From: Halichondria panicea
Lineage: Eukaryota > Porifera > Demospongiae > Suberitida > Halichondriidae
Direction: 5' to 3'
Length of the DNA: 64,000 nt
NCBI RefSeq assembly: GCF_963675165.1
Contig: NC_087387.1
Coordinates: 4,180,990-4,244,989, forward strand
The translations under genes and the position numbers were made by a program. Of the stretch, positions 38,264-45,909 are shown one piece after another. A model generated the notes under the pieces. It made no database searches. It was not told the origin of the DNA and was given only the letters and a program-made list of their open reading frames with translations. Numbering within the stretch: the first letter of the stretch is position 1; each line of letters opens with the position of its first letter.

Positions 38264-38437
<174 letters not shown>

Positions 38438-38480: not shown

Positions 38481-38579
38481 CGTGTTTGGTAGGTCAACAA
38501 TGGCTCCAGCAGTGATCAAATGGTGAGCGACATCTTTGTGTCCATTGAAGCTGGCTGTCCAGAGAGCAGTCCGTCCATC
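38481..38579 (-). CDS. Single-ankyrin-repeat exon, type B (first after the multi-repeat exon)
   Basis: A 99-bp phase 0-0 exon reads DGRTALWTASFNGH, then HLITAGAIVDLPNT. The acceptor is ATTAATAG and the donor GTGGGT. It is the nearest repeat exon downstream of the 654-bp ankyrin exon, which ends in phase 0, so the join keeps the frame. This is the best link between the 5' part of the gene and the array. Confidence 0.72.
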
Positions 38580-39521
38580 CTATTAATAGTACATAAAGTC
38601 ACGTTTTAACGATCACATATCATTATTTTTGTAACTGACAGACGTGTAACCAATAATTTGTAGACACTGAAATGAAACAAAATTGTGTCTAGTAGCTAAT
38701 GAAAGCACCGCAAGTGTTGATGCACCTCGTAGATGTGTCAAAGCTATACATAACATAAAGCTACTAGCTATATTGTCCTAATTAAACTCTTCAAGTTGCC
38801 CCAAGATTAGACGTTACATACGGTACTTTCAGTGGTCATGGGGGGATTATAGCTAAAATTGCATTTACTAAATAATTCTCACAATAAAAATCTCTTTTTA
38901 AATGGTTCGTACATGTCAGCCCCAGAACGATACGATCTACACAATTTAATGGGGGTATGCAGAAATCTGCACGTGAATCGGGCAAGACAGCAGATTGACA
39001 ATTTTGCAAGTATTTGGCAGATAAATGGATAAGAGCTCTTATATACATACATTGCACAAACCAATTGCAAATGAAATTTTTTACTTACGAAAATAGCTAT
39101 TCAAGTTACTTTTTGCTCCACGAAAATTACCAGCTAATTACGGCAATTAAAAAAAGGGGGTGCTGCAAAGATGTCAGAGTTCACAAGGGCTGCTGCTTCT
39201 GGCAGTGTACATTTTGCAGCTCTTTTTGACTATAGCGCCAATGCTAACTCGAATAGTGAGTAAAAATTAATGATGCTACAAAAGATTCTGAAGATGCGAG
39301 TCAAACCAGCCATAACTCGAGAAAGAAGCACATCAAAATCCAAAGGAACGTTGCTAGAAGCCTACTGTCTCATACAAGAGATTAGATTTCCCCGCATTGC
39401 TTGAGCAGTTACAACTGCAATACACACACAGACACTGACAGACCCATATGGCCAGCTTATAAATTCCCGTATTCCTCGTGGGGCTACACCTCGAGGCATA
39501 CACACAGCTAATCCATCTTAC
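38580..39521. other. Intronic spacer
   Basis: It is about 940 bp between two exons of the ankyrin gene. It contains fragments of the GCATGCGC/GCATCAGCACC family at about 38.70-38.78 and 39.25-39.50 kb and no coding signal. Confidence 0.55.
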
Positions 39522-40175
39522 CTCAGTTTGACAGTTAACATCACATGGTCCTAGAGAGGGAGTATCACCTTGGAGGAGATTGCCAGTGAGAAGATAACTA
39601 ATCAGCTCAGAATTCCCAGAGAAAGCAGCATAATGAAGCATTGTCCACCCATTAGCTGTTTGCTCATTAACATCCACGGGCTGATGTTGCTGACTCTCGT
39701 ACATTAGGTACTTTACAGTGTTTAAATCACCACCTCGACAAGATTTATGCAGTGGTGAAGATAGATAGTTGTCCAGAACAAGTGGGTCCACTTGCTGGGT
39801 GCCAACAAGATACGTCACAATGTTCAAGTGTCCATTGAAAGCAGCATGATGAAGAGGTGTTTCACCATTAATAGATTCAGTTGCTGCATTGACTAGCCTA
39901 TCTTCAATCATGTACTTCAAACTTATTACATCACCAGTAGCTGCTGCAGTGTGAAGAGCCGTGTTGCCTTCTCTATTAACAGCTAGAGGACTGCAACGAA
40001 ACACTTCAACTAGAAATCGTAGTTTAGTCCTTTCTCCATTAAACGCAGCAGAATGAACTTTTAAGCTTGCTACCTTCACCGAGGGAGGTGGTTCATTAGA
40101 TTGTAGTTTCAGAGCACTCAAGTCTGCATTAAAATCTTGTAGCATCTCTTCATTTCCAGCACCAAAAGTGTCTAC
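39522..40175 (-). CDS. Ankyrin-repeat exon with five repeats (exon 6)
   Basis: A 654-bp exon (218 codons, phase 0 at both ends) has TCTACAG acceptor and GTAAGA donor. About 50 residues of linker are followed by roughly five ankyrin repeats, with recognisable heads NTALHTAAATGD, ETPLHHAAFNGH, SSPLHKSCRGGD and WTMLHYAAFSGN. Ankyrin repeats are protein-binding modules. This exon looks older than the single-repeat exons because its repeats differ from one another. It joins exon 5 upstream and the A/B exon array downstream, both in phase 0. I infer that it is the ligand- or partner-binding part of the death-domain protein. Confidence 0.85.
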
Positions 40176-40454
40176 CTGTAGAAATATTGTTATAGTACGT
40201 GTCAGTGAAATAATCATGAGTTTACAGTAAAGCGGTATCAGTATGTCTTGGGTGCTAGTACGTTCGTATGTGTGTTTGAGAGATTGAAAAAAAAATCAAT
40301 TTTGGGTGCATATCTGTCCGCTGAGACCTTGCTGACTCATATCATTTCAAAAATTCAAGATTTCTCAAACAGGAAGATGACTGATTTTCAGTCCATAGAA
40401 TATATACATACCATGTTATTTGTAAATGTAGTGCAGTCCAACAAAATTGGTTTA

Positions 40455-40751
40455 CCGTACTTATTCCAATTAAAGCAACCCTCCAAATATGCAACACCCT
40501 CGATCTTTTTCAATTTTCTGACCTCTAAAAGTAGCGACTGCAGCATTCACGTTATGTCGCGTCCTAAATAGAGGTAATCACAGCCTCGATTCCAGGCCGC
40601 AAGGATAGTAGCTAGAGTAACCTCCAATTAGATGTGACCCTCTATAAATATGCGACACCAGGACTTCAACATAATTTTTCAACCTCCAAAAAAAACGACC
40701 TTTGGCTTCGTAATTATTTAAAAAGTGTCGCTTTAAATCGAATAAGTACGG
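40455..40751. mobile_element. 297-bp TA-flanked inverted-repeat element
   Basis: The left end CCGTACTTATTCCAATTAAA and right end TTTAAATCGAATAAGTACGG are inverted near-copies with TA on both sides. It belongs to the same family as 55,243-55,491. It is non-coding. Confidence 0.75.
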
Positions 40752-42604
40752 TAAATTTTGTCTTACGCTGTGTCTTATTAATGCTGAGAAGAAATATTCG
40801 TATTATAGCTAAACACCTTAGAGCAGTAGTTATAGTTAAATACATTGGAATAGCAACTGGGGGTAGCTAAATGTACGACCTTGAGAATCGGAAACGGTGG
40901 GTTAAAGATCTTTCACACGTCTAGCACATTCCCAGTTGCATATTTTAATAGCAGCCACATTATAGTTATAGTTATTATTGTAACTTGTTACAATATGTTG
41001 TGCTGTTGTGACTTAAAAAGTAAAAGAACAAAATAATTATAACATATATATAATTATTATCTCAGTTACACATATACAGGTTTAGAATTGTAGGAGAAAT
41101 AATTTGTACAATTACTAAGTACATGTATGCTGTTTAGGCTTCAATTATACACTCTAGAATGCTAGTATGCACAATATTCGTTTGCTTACTGCATAGTTGA
41201 TTTCTGCGCCATTTTGTGTTTAAGTTTTCCATGTGCTTTTTGGGATCACATGATCCTTTATTACCCGAGGCGCGCGTGGGCGGCCACGGGTATAGTAGTC
41301 GTTTGGTTTGTCTGTTTGTCTGTTTGTAATTTCTGGGTCTGCTCACCTAGCTGCCACAGCACTGCGTTTATAGCATGGATAGCCTTCACACAGTAAGTTA
41401 CACAGAAGCTTGAACTTGCACGGTTGGCAGCTAGCTAGCTAACTACACGCGGCCTTTATTCGAGGCAACCTCCGTATTTACAGCTGAAGTGATCCAGTAC
41501 CAAAAAAACAGTGGAAAAGAATAGAAAGCTAGAATTGTGACTTGTTTGTTGTCTATGACTGTTGGCTAGGCCACCTCTTTACCCCCAAGTACTTAATTAG
41601 GGGAGCATCATAATTATTAGAAACGCTTCATCATTATCTGATTAGCGAGGTTGCACCCCTCTAATTAATTAGAGGGGCTTCCTATCCATATTAACGGCCT
41701 TCAGTCATGGTACGGCTCACCCTCCAAGGAGCGTTGCGGTAATGGGTAGCTGTACTCATCACTTGCAGCAGTACCTAGAGTGACATATAACTTCGTAGTG
41801 GTAATGGTATCTAATTGGGCGCATGGCTTGCATGTTTATTACTTGACGTACAGTAGATTAAATGATGTTTAGGGTAGTTAAACAAGGTTAATCGATGTAC
41901 TCCGCTTGCCCCGCCTACTGCATTATGTACTGCCCAGCATGCATCTACGCGCATGCGTAATTATCTCTACACCTACCTCGTGCTCGATTATAGCTACCTG
42001 AGCTTATAGCTGACTCTGGGATCCGACTCTATCCAAGAGTCATACTTCTCTGAGACTCCAGGCTTCTTTGCTGTGATCCTAGACTAGGACCTAGTTCACC
42101 TCATGTACAACTAAAACTCTGTTCTCAATGTTTCATGCCTCCAGTCTGGTTTAGTTTTATTGCTCCCGAGTTGCTGTGCTAGACAGCTCAGTCATACATC
42201 ACTACATGCATGCACTGCATTATATCAATCTTCTGGTATCACTCTTCTGGTTTCTTTATAATCATGTCACCAGCCAAGGGTTTGCACTTCAGTGCTCTAG
42301 TTTTAGCTATTTATTGTTGTGATGCTCTTATCACGTGGATACTGTGTAAAACTGCAGGGGCTCCGCTGGGGTGTCGTGTTCTTTCAACCTGCATGGTGGT
42401 TATATTGTGTTGTATTGGTAGCTGGTTGAGAGAAGCCATAGACTATGCCCACACTTTTGGACCACTAAATATTTTTTGGTATTTTGGTTATTCGGCATTT
42501 TGTTAACAAACTTTTTGTATAGATATTGTGTGTCTGTGAATGGGTTAGTTTTATATTGGTAAATGCAAAATATTTTGGTTCTCTCCTTGCAGGCATTAAA
42601 TAGA

Positions 42605-43196
42605 TACCAGTGTGTGTGTGTGTGTGTGTGTAGACTGCTATACAGCTGCTCAAGGATCAATGATTAAGAAGTGCAAATAGGAGTTTCTACCGTATAGCGC
42701 GAAATTTTCGAGGCACTTATATTTCGTGGATTGGCCTGCACAATGTTCGCGGAATGACTGCTAACCGGAAGCCACGCCTTAAATCTTTGCACGTTATAGC
42801 AGGTAATTTAACAATTTTCGTGGACTTATTTTCGTGTAGAATTCTAACCCACGAAATCCGTGAAAATTAAGCCCCTCGAAAATTTCGCGCTATACGGTAG
42901 TCATGTTTTCTTGGATTTTAATTCTTGGATTTGCAAAATTTCTAATTTGTTTCGCCTACAAAAGTAAAACTTGTAATTTTGGAGTGTTGCTACTCTACTT
43001 ATATATATATAGCGGTTAGCTCAGCACTATAGAACGCTAGCTATTGGTAGCTGCAAGATGCAAGGCTCTGCTGATGCATTTTGACTTTTGGCAGCATCAA
43101 TCATGGTCAATCATTTCCTGTGCATGCAGTAAAAATTAATTAGCAATAGCTAGAGCTTTATGTTATGTAGCTTTGACACATCATCAGCGCTTATAG
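42605..43196 (+). repeat. Copy of the GCATGCGC/GCATCAGCACC family, interrupted
   Basis: It begins with a GT tract at about 42,609-42,631 and the words AGACTGCTATACAGCTGCTC, and ends near the diverged CATCATCAGCGC. The family is interrupted by the 208-bp element at 42,690-42,897. Confidence 0.65.
42690..42897. mobile_element. 208-bp TA-flanked element with CCGTATAGCGCGAAA ends
   Basis: The left end CCGTATAGCGCGAAATTTTC and the right end GAAAATTTCGCGCTATACGG are perfect inverted repeats of at least 24 bp. TA flanks both sides as a target duplication. It is inserted into the dispersed-family copy, so it is the younger of the two. The terminal word CTATACGGTA recurs at many places in the window. 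Confidence 0.85.
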
Positions 43197-43220
43197 TCTC
43201 GAGTCCCCATATACAATTAC

Positions 43221-43471
43221 CTCAGTAAGATATGATTTAATAGTCCGAGCTCCTCTCTTGCTTCTCACAATCCCAGAGTCAGAATTAGAAAGCTCTCCTT
43301 TTTTGTTGACTGTCGGGCCCTCTAAGAAACGGTGCATTTGGAACGTCTCTAAGTAATCAGTAGCAACAGATTTGTACTCAGAATGAAGAGTACTGGCCAA
43401 TCCTTCATCAGAATCTGAGTGACCAGAAGTACAGTACAATAATACACTTAAGCTGGTCACGGCACTTATTT
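43221..43471 (-). CDS. Exon 5 of the 2A/death-domain/ankyrin gene (linker)
   Basis: The exon is 251 bp, entered in phase 1 and left in phase 0. It encodes about 84 residues, EISAVTSLSVLLYC to TIKSYLTE, rich in Ser, Asp and Lys/Arg in its second half (SNSDSGIVRSKRGARTIK). I recognise no domain. The phase agrees with exon 4 upstream and exon 6 downstream, which supports its place in the gene. Its role may be a flexible linker between the conserved region of exon 3 and the ankyrin repeats. Confidence 0.65.
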
Positions 43472-43658
43472 CTTGCCAAAATGGTAGGTTAAAATCGATT
43501 AACATAAGTTGACATTATACGCACGTATACAATATAGCCTTCCCCTAATCTCATAACACACACCATCAAGTCATGAATTATTTCAAATCATGGTAATTTT
43601 ATTACGCATGTAAAATGATACCTCCATCAACAATACCACGACACAGGTTTTAAGTTAC

Positions 43659-43701
43659 CTGAACTGGACCAGGATGTATTATCTCCTTCATCGGATCGAC
43701 A
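43659..43701 (-). CDS. Exon 4, 43-nt small exon
   Basis: A CCCAATAG acceptor and GTAACT donor bound 43 nt. Entered in phase 0 it reads CRSDEGDNTSWSSS and leaves in phase 1, which is exactly what exon 5 needs. No domain is recognisable. It is predicted only from splice sites and phase. Confidence 0.5.
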
Positions 43702-43860
43702 CTATTGGGAATAATGAGACATGCATGAATGATCGACACATTGGGACATGCATGAATATACATATCATGATACTTTTTTTTTACTCGCTGTATGAATGAT
43801 AAAACACTAGCGGCTACATGTAATTAGACAAGACTAATCAATGTACATTAAAATTAATAC

Positions 43861-44567
43861 CTCAGCTGGATAATGAACATCCCCACAGTGTAGCTGTAAC
43901 ACCCCTTGACTATGCAGAGCACGTTCTTGATCACTTGACAGTGGAAAGATGTCACTTGTTATGAAAGAGGGCAACAGAAATGTTAGCTCAATACAACCAT
44001 CATCAATCTTGCAAAGTTTTAAAACACCATCGTTCAGGTTCAAGATGGAACTTAGATTCCATTCGAATAACTTCAGTCGACTCATTTCACAATTGTCGTA
44101 CGAAGAATCAAGCTTTACAATCATAGTGACGGTATCTTCTCTGGAGTCTGAACTAATTTTCCCTTTCTCTAGTACACGCTTAGCATACCCGATAAACTTT
44201 GTTTTGTAGAGTTTCATGTTTTCTTTGTCCACATCCGTTCCAAATCGTTTAGTGATCAGCTCTACCATATCATAGTCAAAGAAAGAGAAATAATCAGCAA
44301 TAATTTGCCAAACCTCCGCAATTGTTGAACATTGACAGAGTTTGTCTCTTTGATCTCTGAAAACACACTGATTTCTACTATCGAACACCTTATTTAAACA
44401 GTTAAACCCCATTAATCCAGCAACTAAGGAGTCTTTTGAAATTGTTCGAATTTCAAGCGATTGGCATAGTTGTGACACAAGATCACCGAACTGGATTTCC
44501 ATTTTCATTGAAGATAATCTTAATTCTTTTATACGTGGAGGCATGAGAACAAGTTGACTGCTTGTAC
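43861..44567 (-). CDS. Exon 3: conserved region next to the death domain
   Basis: The exon is 707 bp, entered in phase 1 (completing a Ser codon) and left in phase 0. About 236 residues form two parts. The first is helical, with CQCSTIAEVWQIIADYFSFF and ITKRFGTDVDKENMKLYK; it resembles helical modules that recur beside death domains in cnidarian and sponge proteins, a resemblance I recall rather than have measured. The second contains WNLSSILNLNDGVLKL, DDGCIELTFLLP and PLSSDQERALHSQGVLQL, a pattern also seen in such proteins. No nucleotide-binding motif (P-loop) is present, so this is not a classical NLR NACHT domain. It probably mediates assembly or regulation of the death-domain protein. 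The acceptor is CCTGCAG and the donor GTATTA. Confidence 0.8.
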
Positions 44568-44814
44568 CTGCAGGAAAATAATATCGTGCAACTATCGTAC
44601 ATTATAGGCACAAAATTAATCCACACAAAATGAAGTTGCTTGCGTATCACATGATTGTACAATCTAATTATGTACGTGCACATAATTATGTATATAGAAT
44701 GCTGTAACTAACACGGTATAATTACATGTATGATACGTACGATACACACTCTCCTTGCTACCAGCAGATAGCTAAGCATTGATAGACTAGTGTTAGTATT
44801 AATATAGCTTATAC

Positions 44815-44851
44815 CGTCTGATGTCTCTCTTTCCTCGATGCTTTGAGTTAT
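44815..44851 (-). CDS. Possible 37-nt micro-exon
   Basis: A CACAG acceptor and GTATAA donor bound 37 nt. Entered in phase 0 it reads ITQSIEERETSD and leaves in phase 1, completing a Gly codon with exon 3. Exon 2 ends in phase 1, however, so this micro-exon cannot follow it directly: either an unseen exon lies between, or it is used from an alternative start, or it is chance. Confidence 0.3.
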
Positions 44852-45146
44852 CTGTGTGTATAGATTAGATTTTGATTATATAAAAGATCATCATAATTAT
44901 ATACGTGCGTGTAATTATGGTGATTAAAAACGTTGAGCACCAGAGTGGAAAGTGTGTACGGGCGCAACTAGCACCTGGAGTAGTAAAAACTATTCTGTGG
45001 TACATAGATCTTCGAATAGGCGCCACGAAAATTCATGCTCAAGGGGATTTACCTCAACTTCTTGTCTCTCTTTATCTGTAAACATGTGTGCATTCAATGC
45101 ATGCATGACGTAGGTATTTCAACGACAAAATTATTCAGTCACTCAC

Positions 45147-45431
45147 TTGGAACTAAGATTTCTTCTATCTTCACAGCTAGATCATTTCTTGCCACTGTAG
45201 AGTGCCTGAGAGCAGTACACATACCTCCCCAAGTTAGAAGATCATCTGACTGCAGTCGACGAGCTAGGGCCTCACGCAAACACACATCATTGTCACCACG
45301 ATACTTATCATGAAAGTTTGTTAAGTCGATATAGCTCAGCTTCAACGCAAGTCCCAGGTTGAACCAGTTCGGACTAGCACTCCTCACCTTCTCATACACC
45401 TCAAGTATGTCAGAGAGAGTCAGAACAGTAT
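45147..45431 (-). CDS. Exon 2: death domain
   Basis: The exon is 285 bp, entered and left in phase 1. It encodes a six-helix-type death domain of about 90 residues: ILEVYEKVRSASPNWFNLGL, then DVCLREALARRLQSDD, then LTWGGMCTALRHSTVARNDL ending AVKIEE. The spacing of Trp, the Leu-rich core and the TW...L..AL......LA..IE block are typical. Death domains form homotypic complexes in innate-immune and apoptotic signalling. The first codon (Asp) is split across the intron with exon 1 and reads cleanly, which places the domain directly after the 2A site. The acceptor is ATGCAG and the donor GTGAGT. Confidence 0.88.
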
Positions 45432-45479
45432 CTGCATGACAATGATAATTCTATAGTGAAATATACAGGAAGTACATAC

Positions 45480-45909
45480 CCAGTCCAGGTCCAGGGTTTA
45501 GCTCTACATCTCCGGCCAATACCAGGAGAAGAGAGACGAAGACAAGTATTGCTCCTATTAAGATCAGGGTGAGGCCAATACAAATACTTGACAAGTAATT
45601 GCGGCTATGGTTAGTAGTGAATGTCACTGATTCTTTTTTCTTTTCAGGAACCACATCTTCATGACAGTTACTGGGAGGAGCTTTGTCTGTTGCATTATTT
45701 AGTACTGATTCAACGACACACTTATCACGATGGCTGGTGGTATCTTCAGCCTGGAGGGTGCTACACTGTGTCCGTAACGCCATTGTGACTATGATAGTAA
45801 CATCACACTGTAGCTTCTGGTGAGCCAGGGAAGCTTTACGTGGCCGCCCTCCTCTTCCACCATTGAACAACCCAATACGAGCTCTCCACAACTCCACACC
45901 AATGCCCAT
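45480..45909 (-). CDS. Exon 1: leader with transmembrane segment and 2A ribosome-skipping motif
   Basis: The ATG at 45,909 is the first in-frame Met after an upstream TAG. The exon encodes 143 residues and leaves in phase 1 at a GTATGT donor. A basic N-terminus (MGIGVELWRARIGLFNGGRG) is followed by a polar region and a hydrophobic stretch at about residues 108-131. AGDVELNPGP follows at residues 132-141. The D(V/I)ExNPGP consensus of 2A peptides is complete, so translation is expected to break between Gly140 and Pro141. That would release a 140-residue protein with a C-terminal membrane segment, apart from a death-domain/ankyrin protein starting with Pro. 2A-like sequences are known in sea-urchin and sponge innate-immune genes and in some non-LTR retrotransposons. 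The leader could derive from such an element. Skipping activity itself is not shown by the sequence. Confidence 0.85.
45487..45516 (-). other. 2A ribosome-skipping site
   Basis: These ten codons encode AGDVELNPGP. All eight residues of the DxExNPGP core are present. The site lies 7 nt before the exon 1 donor, so every transcript that uses this first exon would carry it just ahead of the death domain. Confidence 0.85.

Follow-up and report, generated by a model that had tools for sequence, protein, structure and literature searches.

A leader exon ending in a predicted 2A/StopGo site precedes a death-domain/ankyrin gene of the sponge Halichondria panicea and recurs across its genome

A stretch of 64,000 nucleotides of the genome of the sponge Halichondria panicea (contig NC_087387.1, positions 4,180,990 to 4,244,989; hereafter the window, with coordinates counted from its first letter) carries on its minus strand a gene in which a candidate ribosome-skipping peptide of the 2A (StopGo) type stands ahead of a death domain and ankyrin repeats. 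We modelled ten exons for this gene, running from 45909 to 38279, with GT/AG intron ends and compatible phases. Exon 1 (45480..45909) opens with an ATG that has an in-frame TAG 12 nt upstream (45924-45922). The encoded leader is 140 residues long as far as NPG; Pro-Gly-Leu comes next, and the exon closes on the first base of an Asp codon that the intron divides (G/AT), the donor being GTATGT. The leader begins with MGIGVELWRARIGLFNGGRG... (45805..45909), which contains the element WR[AV]R[IT]G common to other leader types, and a hydrophobic, membrane-like stretch judged by hydropathy occupies residues 107-132 (45514..45591). The 2A core octapeptide DVELNPGP lies at 45487..45510, with the predicted skip between GGA (45492-45490) and CCT (45489-45487), and the exon ends 7 nt past the 2A proline codon. 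Intron 1 (45432..45479; 48 nt, phase 1) carries an in-frame stop. The death domain follows in exon 2 (45147..45431), where the first in-frame Met is residue 71 of 95, so translation of the whole domain requires a coding exon on its 5' side.

Between the death domain and the ankyrin repeats lie a conserved companion region encoded by exon 5 (43861..44567) and four small exons, namely, exon 3 (45075-45053, 23 nt), exon 4 (44851-44815, 37 nt), exon 6 (43701-43659, 43 nt), and exon 7 (43414-43221, 194 nt). Ankyrin repeats are encoded by exon 8 (39522..40175), exon 9 (38481..38579), and exon 10 (38279..38377). An initial annotation of this DNA had placed the leader, the hydrophobic stretch, the 2A, the split Asp codon, the death-domain exon, the companion region, and the ankyrin exons between 45,909 and 38,481, and all of these are where it put them; its set of six exons holds for the parts named and is too coarse in its division, the tenth modelled exon lying outside that interval. 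Pfam matched ankyrin repeats strongly in the window's protein model (Ank_2, 8.7e-45) and gave no NACHT match, which bears out the description of a death-domain/ankyrin protein without NACHT behind an in-frame 2A leader exon; the protein does not qualify as an NLR. The companion exon had no Foldseek match at E <= 0.001 and low TM-scores, its structure model being mediocre (predicted local distance difference test, pLDDT, 75.0; predicted template modelling score, pTM, 0.51). Below 38279, further ankyrin exon pairs are present on the same strand, and near-identical pairs repeat along it from 37779-37479 to about 3567; in the copy at 37779-37681, AT replaces the donor GT, which suggests that some of the copies have decayed.

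The exon 2 domain is divergent. Pfam Death matched no family for the window's own domain, and it matched five of 12 aligned relatives of exon 2 (best 2.6e-5). A profile built from these 12 relatives matched PIDD (0.0011), FADD (0.0064), and CRADD among sequences of the PDB. The structure model of the exon 2 domain has a pLDDT of 92.7, and the top Foldseek hits were death domains of PIDD-RAIDD, FADD, and RIPK1 at probabilities of 0.97-1.00, with weak E-values (0.047 or weaker, none <= 0.001). Based on profile and fold similarity, we take exon 2 to encode a putative divergent death domain.

The 2A core of the window agrees with the published core (D/G/C/N)(V/I)ExNPGP. A DNA pattern for it, GAYGTNGARNNNAAYCCNGGNCC, matched once in the 64-kb window and in 0 of 100 shuffles; genome-wide, the same pattern gave 91 exact sites, compared with 0 for a reversed-pattern control. 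For comparison we used 81 distinct sites, of which 72 are of the DVE type (derived from 75 of the 91 exact sites after three near-identical ones were collapsed) and nine of the DIE type; 2A sites are duplicated in several families, so these site counts are not independent. The hexapeptide upstream of the core, LLVLAG in the window, is L-rich and ends in (A/S/C)G at all 81 sites, with 16 different hexapeptides represented, and its residues were not set by the search pattern. According to PMC12846837, this class corresponds to StopGo motifs 2 and 6, an example of motif 6 is active in rabbit reticulocyte lysate, and StopGo is common among RNA viruses and rare in cellular genes.

The recurrence of these sites is accompanied by a regular gene structure. 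A donor-like GT stands exactly 7 nt past the proline codon at 59 of the 81 sites and within 40 nt at 76, 74 of them in phase 1; at L082 and L083, the GT taken is probably not the true donor, and the likely donor, read by eye, is further on and also in phase 1. Among the best 150 of 527 death-domain candidates, at least 41 of the 91 exact sites are followed within 1.5 kb by a match on their own strand, and none is preceded by one. Five death-domain queries gave a match in the 1.4 kb after the 2A at 62 of the 81 sites (its start is no more than 500 nt away at 56 and no more than 250 nt away at 53); two sites had one upstream (L034 and L035), and antisense matches were 0 on both sides. The match at L020 is partial, with a stop inside. 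NACHT lies within 4 kb downstream at at least 11 of the 91 exact sites, including at least seven on contig C14 at 1.1-2.0 kb, when 21 of 102 NACHT matches are compared. The 19 sites without a death-domain match comprise two long leaders rich in hydrophobic stretches, one of which has NACHT 1.8 kb downstream, the retrotransposon-type site L073, and 16 others. These 2A leaders thus precede death-domain/ankyrin, death-domain/NACHT, and other genes, and are not special to the death-domain/ankyrin architecture.

Several other 2A sites have surroundings of their own. In L063-L066 and L081, the open frame ahead of the 2A resembles, in most, a fragment of an EHD/dynamin-type GTPase, like a piece of another gene (for the L063 piece, Dynamin_N at 4e-4, below the cut-off). 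In L072, L084, L085, and L087, a single long exon frame contains the 2A, preceded by hydrophobic stretches and followed by a part rich in Ser and Thr. A tandem group of 11 sites occupies C2:7744905-7837796, with QCGDVESNPGP in five distinct copies compared and helical-looking domains following, and QLAGDVETNPGP stands ahead of helical-looking domains in L074 and L075; at L007, a death-domain match lies further downstream. By eye, the domains following other 2A sites included two kinds that looked CARD-like or death-domain-like; Pfam found no such domain in the pieces tested, and sequence searches of the PDB gave either no match or matches to repeat proteins, to a methyltransferase, and, weakly, to one designed protein.

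Public gene models contain the same junction. Three NCBI proteins, P0001 (uncharacterized protein LOC135334925 isoform X3, H. panicea), P0002, and P0003 (1302 aa, tankyrase-1-like isoform X5), each join a leader with an intact 2A to a death domain at the predicted donor, and their leaders match H. panicea genome loci exactly. Introns of 54, 88, and 128 nt occupy the position of intron 1 in the P0001, P0002, and P0003 loci. P0003 has the order leader, 2A, death domain, companion, and ankyrin, as in the window gene, and aligns to the window model through the companion and ankyrin parts. Names with isoform X denote NCBI RefSeq models, which are usually transcript-guided. Together with the L-rich hexapeptide class, these paralog models agree with the suggestion of the initial annotation that skipping is the likely use of the motif. 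Protein searches for relatives outside H. panicea returned H. panicea proteins only; because such searches score only proteins that have words in common with the query and fall within a set range of lengths, they do not show that other species lack relatives. In L011, L014, and L015, no in-frame stop interrupts the intron that follows the 2A (open frames of 262, 257, and 273 aa), such that intron retention would still join leader to death domain there, whereas the window copy would stop.

Death-domain exons following leader copies, and paralog models that include such leaders, also speak against the idea that exon 1 is a retrotransposon open reading frame spliced in only by the model. Odon and colleagues are said to have described, in 2013, non-long-terminal-repeat (non-LTR) retrotransposons that bear 2A, and one site of this genome looks like such an element by eye: L073 (C6:6716505), in which an open frame with PHD-like and endonuclease-like parts comes after the 2A. 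The sponge leaders have the 2A core in common with these elements and lead into death-domain exons, not endonuclease-type open frames. Among the best 150 of 616 reverse-transcriptase candidates, none lies in the 5 kb that follow a copy of leader type A (which includes the window's) or B on the strand of that copy; this set also has none beside L073. Within that scope, we regard a retrotransposon origin of exon 1 as very improbable.

The leader itself recurs in several copies. Seven leader-A copies, including the window's, align over their full length at 64-100% identity, and an eighth aligns over the second half; leader-B has about 22 loci with the common N-terminal element. Among the leader loci collected by protein similarity (L009-L037, the window's included), 25 of 29 have an uninterrupted frame that reaches an intact D[VI]ExNPGP core. 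The element WR[AV]R[IT]G, searched for as a DNA pattern that also admits some Ser codons for Arg, gave 46 genomic sites, 30 of them less than 600 nt upstream of a 2A (21 DVE and nine DIE) and distributed over four leader types; with the pattern reversed there were 26, and the remaining 16 could thus be chance matches or broken copies. Constraint was estimated from pooled pairwise differences among the seven leader-A copies, the pairs not being independent. In the 2A core, differences per nonsynonymous site (pN) are 0.014 and those per synonymous site (pS) 0.095, and the first 35 residues of the leader show few differences at either kind of site (pN 0.048 and pS 0.042). From these sequence patterns, the leader appears to be a translated, mildly constrained peptide with a common N-terminal element.

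In the window leader, the Kyte-Doolittle average over 19 residues exceeds 1.6 only for segments that begin at residues 104-122 (maximum 3.12), giving a single hydrophobic stretch near the C-terminus, as in tail-anchored proteins, that ends about 8 residues before the skip point. Residues 1-108, ahead of the stretch, carry a net charge of +4, and residues 133-140, behind it, one of -2. Of the 81 sites compared, 61 have a net positive charge on the leader side of the stretch, and in 75 that side is more positive than the 2A side; since the core's own D and E largely account for the -2 on the latter, only the count of 61 is informative.

We consider it probable that one spliced mRNA gives rise to two proteins by mostly efficient skipping, namely, a tail-anchored leader and a cytosolic death-domain/ankyrin protein. 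We predict that the 2A in the last codons of exon 1 releases the leader of about 140 residues with its C-terminal membrane-like stretch, after which the same ribosome would continue to produce a death-domain/ankyrin protein starting with Pro. That skipping would be efficient is suggested by analogy, from the L-rich (A/S/C)G upstream context. The ribosome exit tunnel holds roughly 30-40 residues. The stretch would still be inside it at the NPG pause, so the freed leader may be expected to be tail-anchored and inserted after translation. Were skipping to fail, the stretch would emerge and could be recognised as a signal anchor; the positive leader side predicts that its N-terminus stays inside, and the fusion would carry the death domain into the lumen of the endoplasmic reticulum (ER) or to the outside, away from cytosolic signalling. 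The pairing would probably couple synthesis of the death-domain protein to that of a membrane partner produced alongside it.

This charge pattern also touches the switch between soluble and tethered forms proposed in the initial annotation, in which a failed skip would leave the death domain and ankyrin repeats on the cytosolic face as a membrane-tethered signalling form. A hydrophobic stretch directly before the 2A makes such a fusion possible in principle. The window leader's +4/-2 and the positive leader side at 61 of 81 sites instead predict an N-in/C-out orientation that puts the death domain on the lumenal side, which agrees with the secretion reported for the sea-urchin NLR 2A. Charge bias alone is a weak predictor of topology; we regard a tethered signalling form as improbable.

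The same orientation would suit a dual-targeting signal as in sea-urchin NLRs, in which the leader serves mainly in ER targeting, partial skipping sets the shares of cytosolic and secretory death-domain protein, and the freed leader has no job. In PMC4981915, an N-terminal 2A of 26 aa in sea urchin gives about 80% recoding and sends the uncleaved product to the exocytic pathway, where it is secreted; the N-terminal flank being the more positive at 75 sites and the weak constraint on the leader would also agree with it. Against this stand a leader of 140 residues with the WR[AV]R[IT]G element in four leader types, superfluous for a plain signal sequence, and a 2A context that belongs to a class with an efficient tested member. 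On balance, dual targeting seems unlikely, though it deserves more weight than a tethered form.

Several points weigh against two proteins made by mostly efficient skipping. Mean hydropathy reaches 1.6 or more (19-residue window, within 45 residues before the core) at only 56 of the 81 sites, so the membrane stretch is not equally clear across families. The leader has a pooled pN/pS of 0.67, compared with 0.45 in the death domain; over its full length it is thus weakly constrained and may be little more than a membrane spacer. For the window gene, both splicing and skipping are predictions from the sequence; we infer paired production, membrane insertion, and an immune role, the pathway being likely one of immunity or cell death. 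Four of the 29 leader loci are broken (L017, L019, L033, and L037), and the window gene's own fusion was absent among database proteins of about 471-1957 aa in a search by shared words. These last two observations would also fit a 2A that is a relic or a chance peptide without recoding, with a single fusion or other 5' ends as the outcome. Such a reading is highly improbable in view of 91 sites versus 0, the right upstream class at 81 of 81, a much stronger conservation of the core than of the remaining leader, and several leader types that keep the same core.

Known systems resemble the window gene in part. SpNLR2A of Strongylocentrotus purpuratus (PMC4981915) likewise has a 2A core N-terminal to death-domain immune-type proteins, with hydrophobic residues directly upstream of the 2A. 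The separation of leader and downstream protein is measured there and predicted here; the leader has 26 aa in SpNLR2A and 140 aa in the sponge, where it sits on its own exon with a common N-terminal element; and the downstream protein is a NACHT-containing NLR in the sea urchin, compared with death domain, companion, and ankyrin without a NACHT match in the window gene. As for the viral StopGo classes 2 and 6 of PMC12846837, DVELNPGP and LLVLAG fit their core and L-rich class, whereas the sponge 2A is placed at the exon end of a cellular multi-exon gene and is a prediction. For NLRs of the sponge Dysidea avara, PMC12909245 reports transmembrane segments, read as marking putative membrane-bound receptors; these genes and the window gene are both sponge death-fold immune-type genes with membrane segments, reported there and predicted here. 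The terms NPGP and ribosome skipping are absent from the main text of PMC12909245, and the transmembrane segments of sponge NLRs that it describes may in part be 2A leaders.

An N-terminal 2A in death-domain immune genes is already known from the sea urchin (PMC4981915). Different here are the long leader with its own exon, its position ahead of a death-domain/ankyrin protein that has no NACHT match, and the occurrence of such leaders in several gene classes within a single genome. We found no sponge case of 2A in the literature; the survey of eukaryotic and viral 2A by Rao et al. 2025 (doi 10.1016/j.celrep.2025.115822), which may list some, lay outside the comparison, so priority is unsettled.

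Like nearly all 2A exons compared here, the leader exon has a phase-1 end, so it could be joined to any phase-1 death-fold exon. Tentatively, and with less confidence than we have in two proteins from the window gene, StopGo may be a general N-terminal module of the death-fold genes of this sponge: portable phase-1 leader exons would turn dozens of death-domain, NLR, and death-domain/ankyrin genes into two-protein genes, each making a small tail-anchored membrane protein, from one of several families of the WR[AV]R[IT]G type, together with its cytosolic sensor or adaptor, which could explain some of the sponge NLRs annotated as transmembrane. If active, these sites would represent cellular ribosome skipping on the scale of a gene family, co-producing a membrane protein and a death-domain protein. 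The 'tankyrase-1-like' P0003 and similar annotated proteins would then not exist mainly as single chains, and some of the transmembrane segments reported for sponge NLRs may come from a product of their own.

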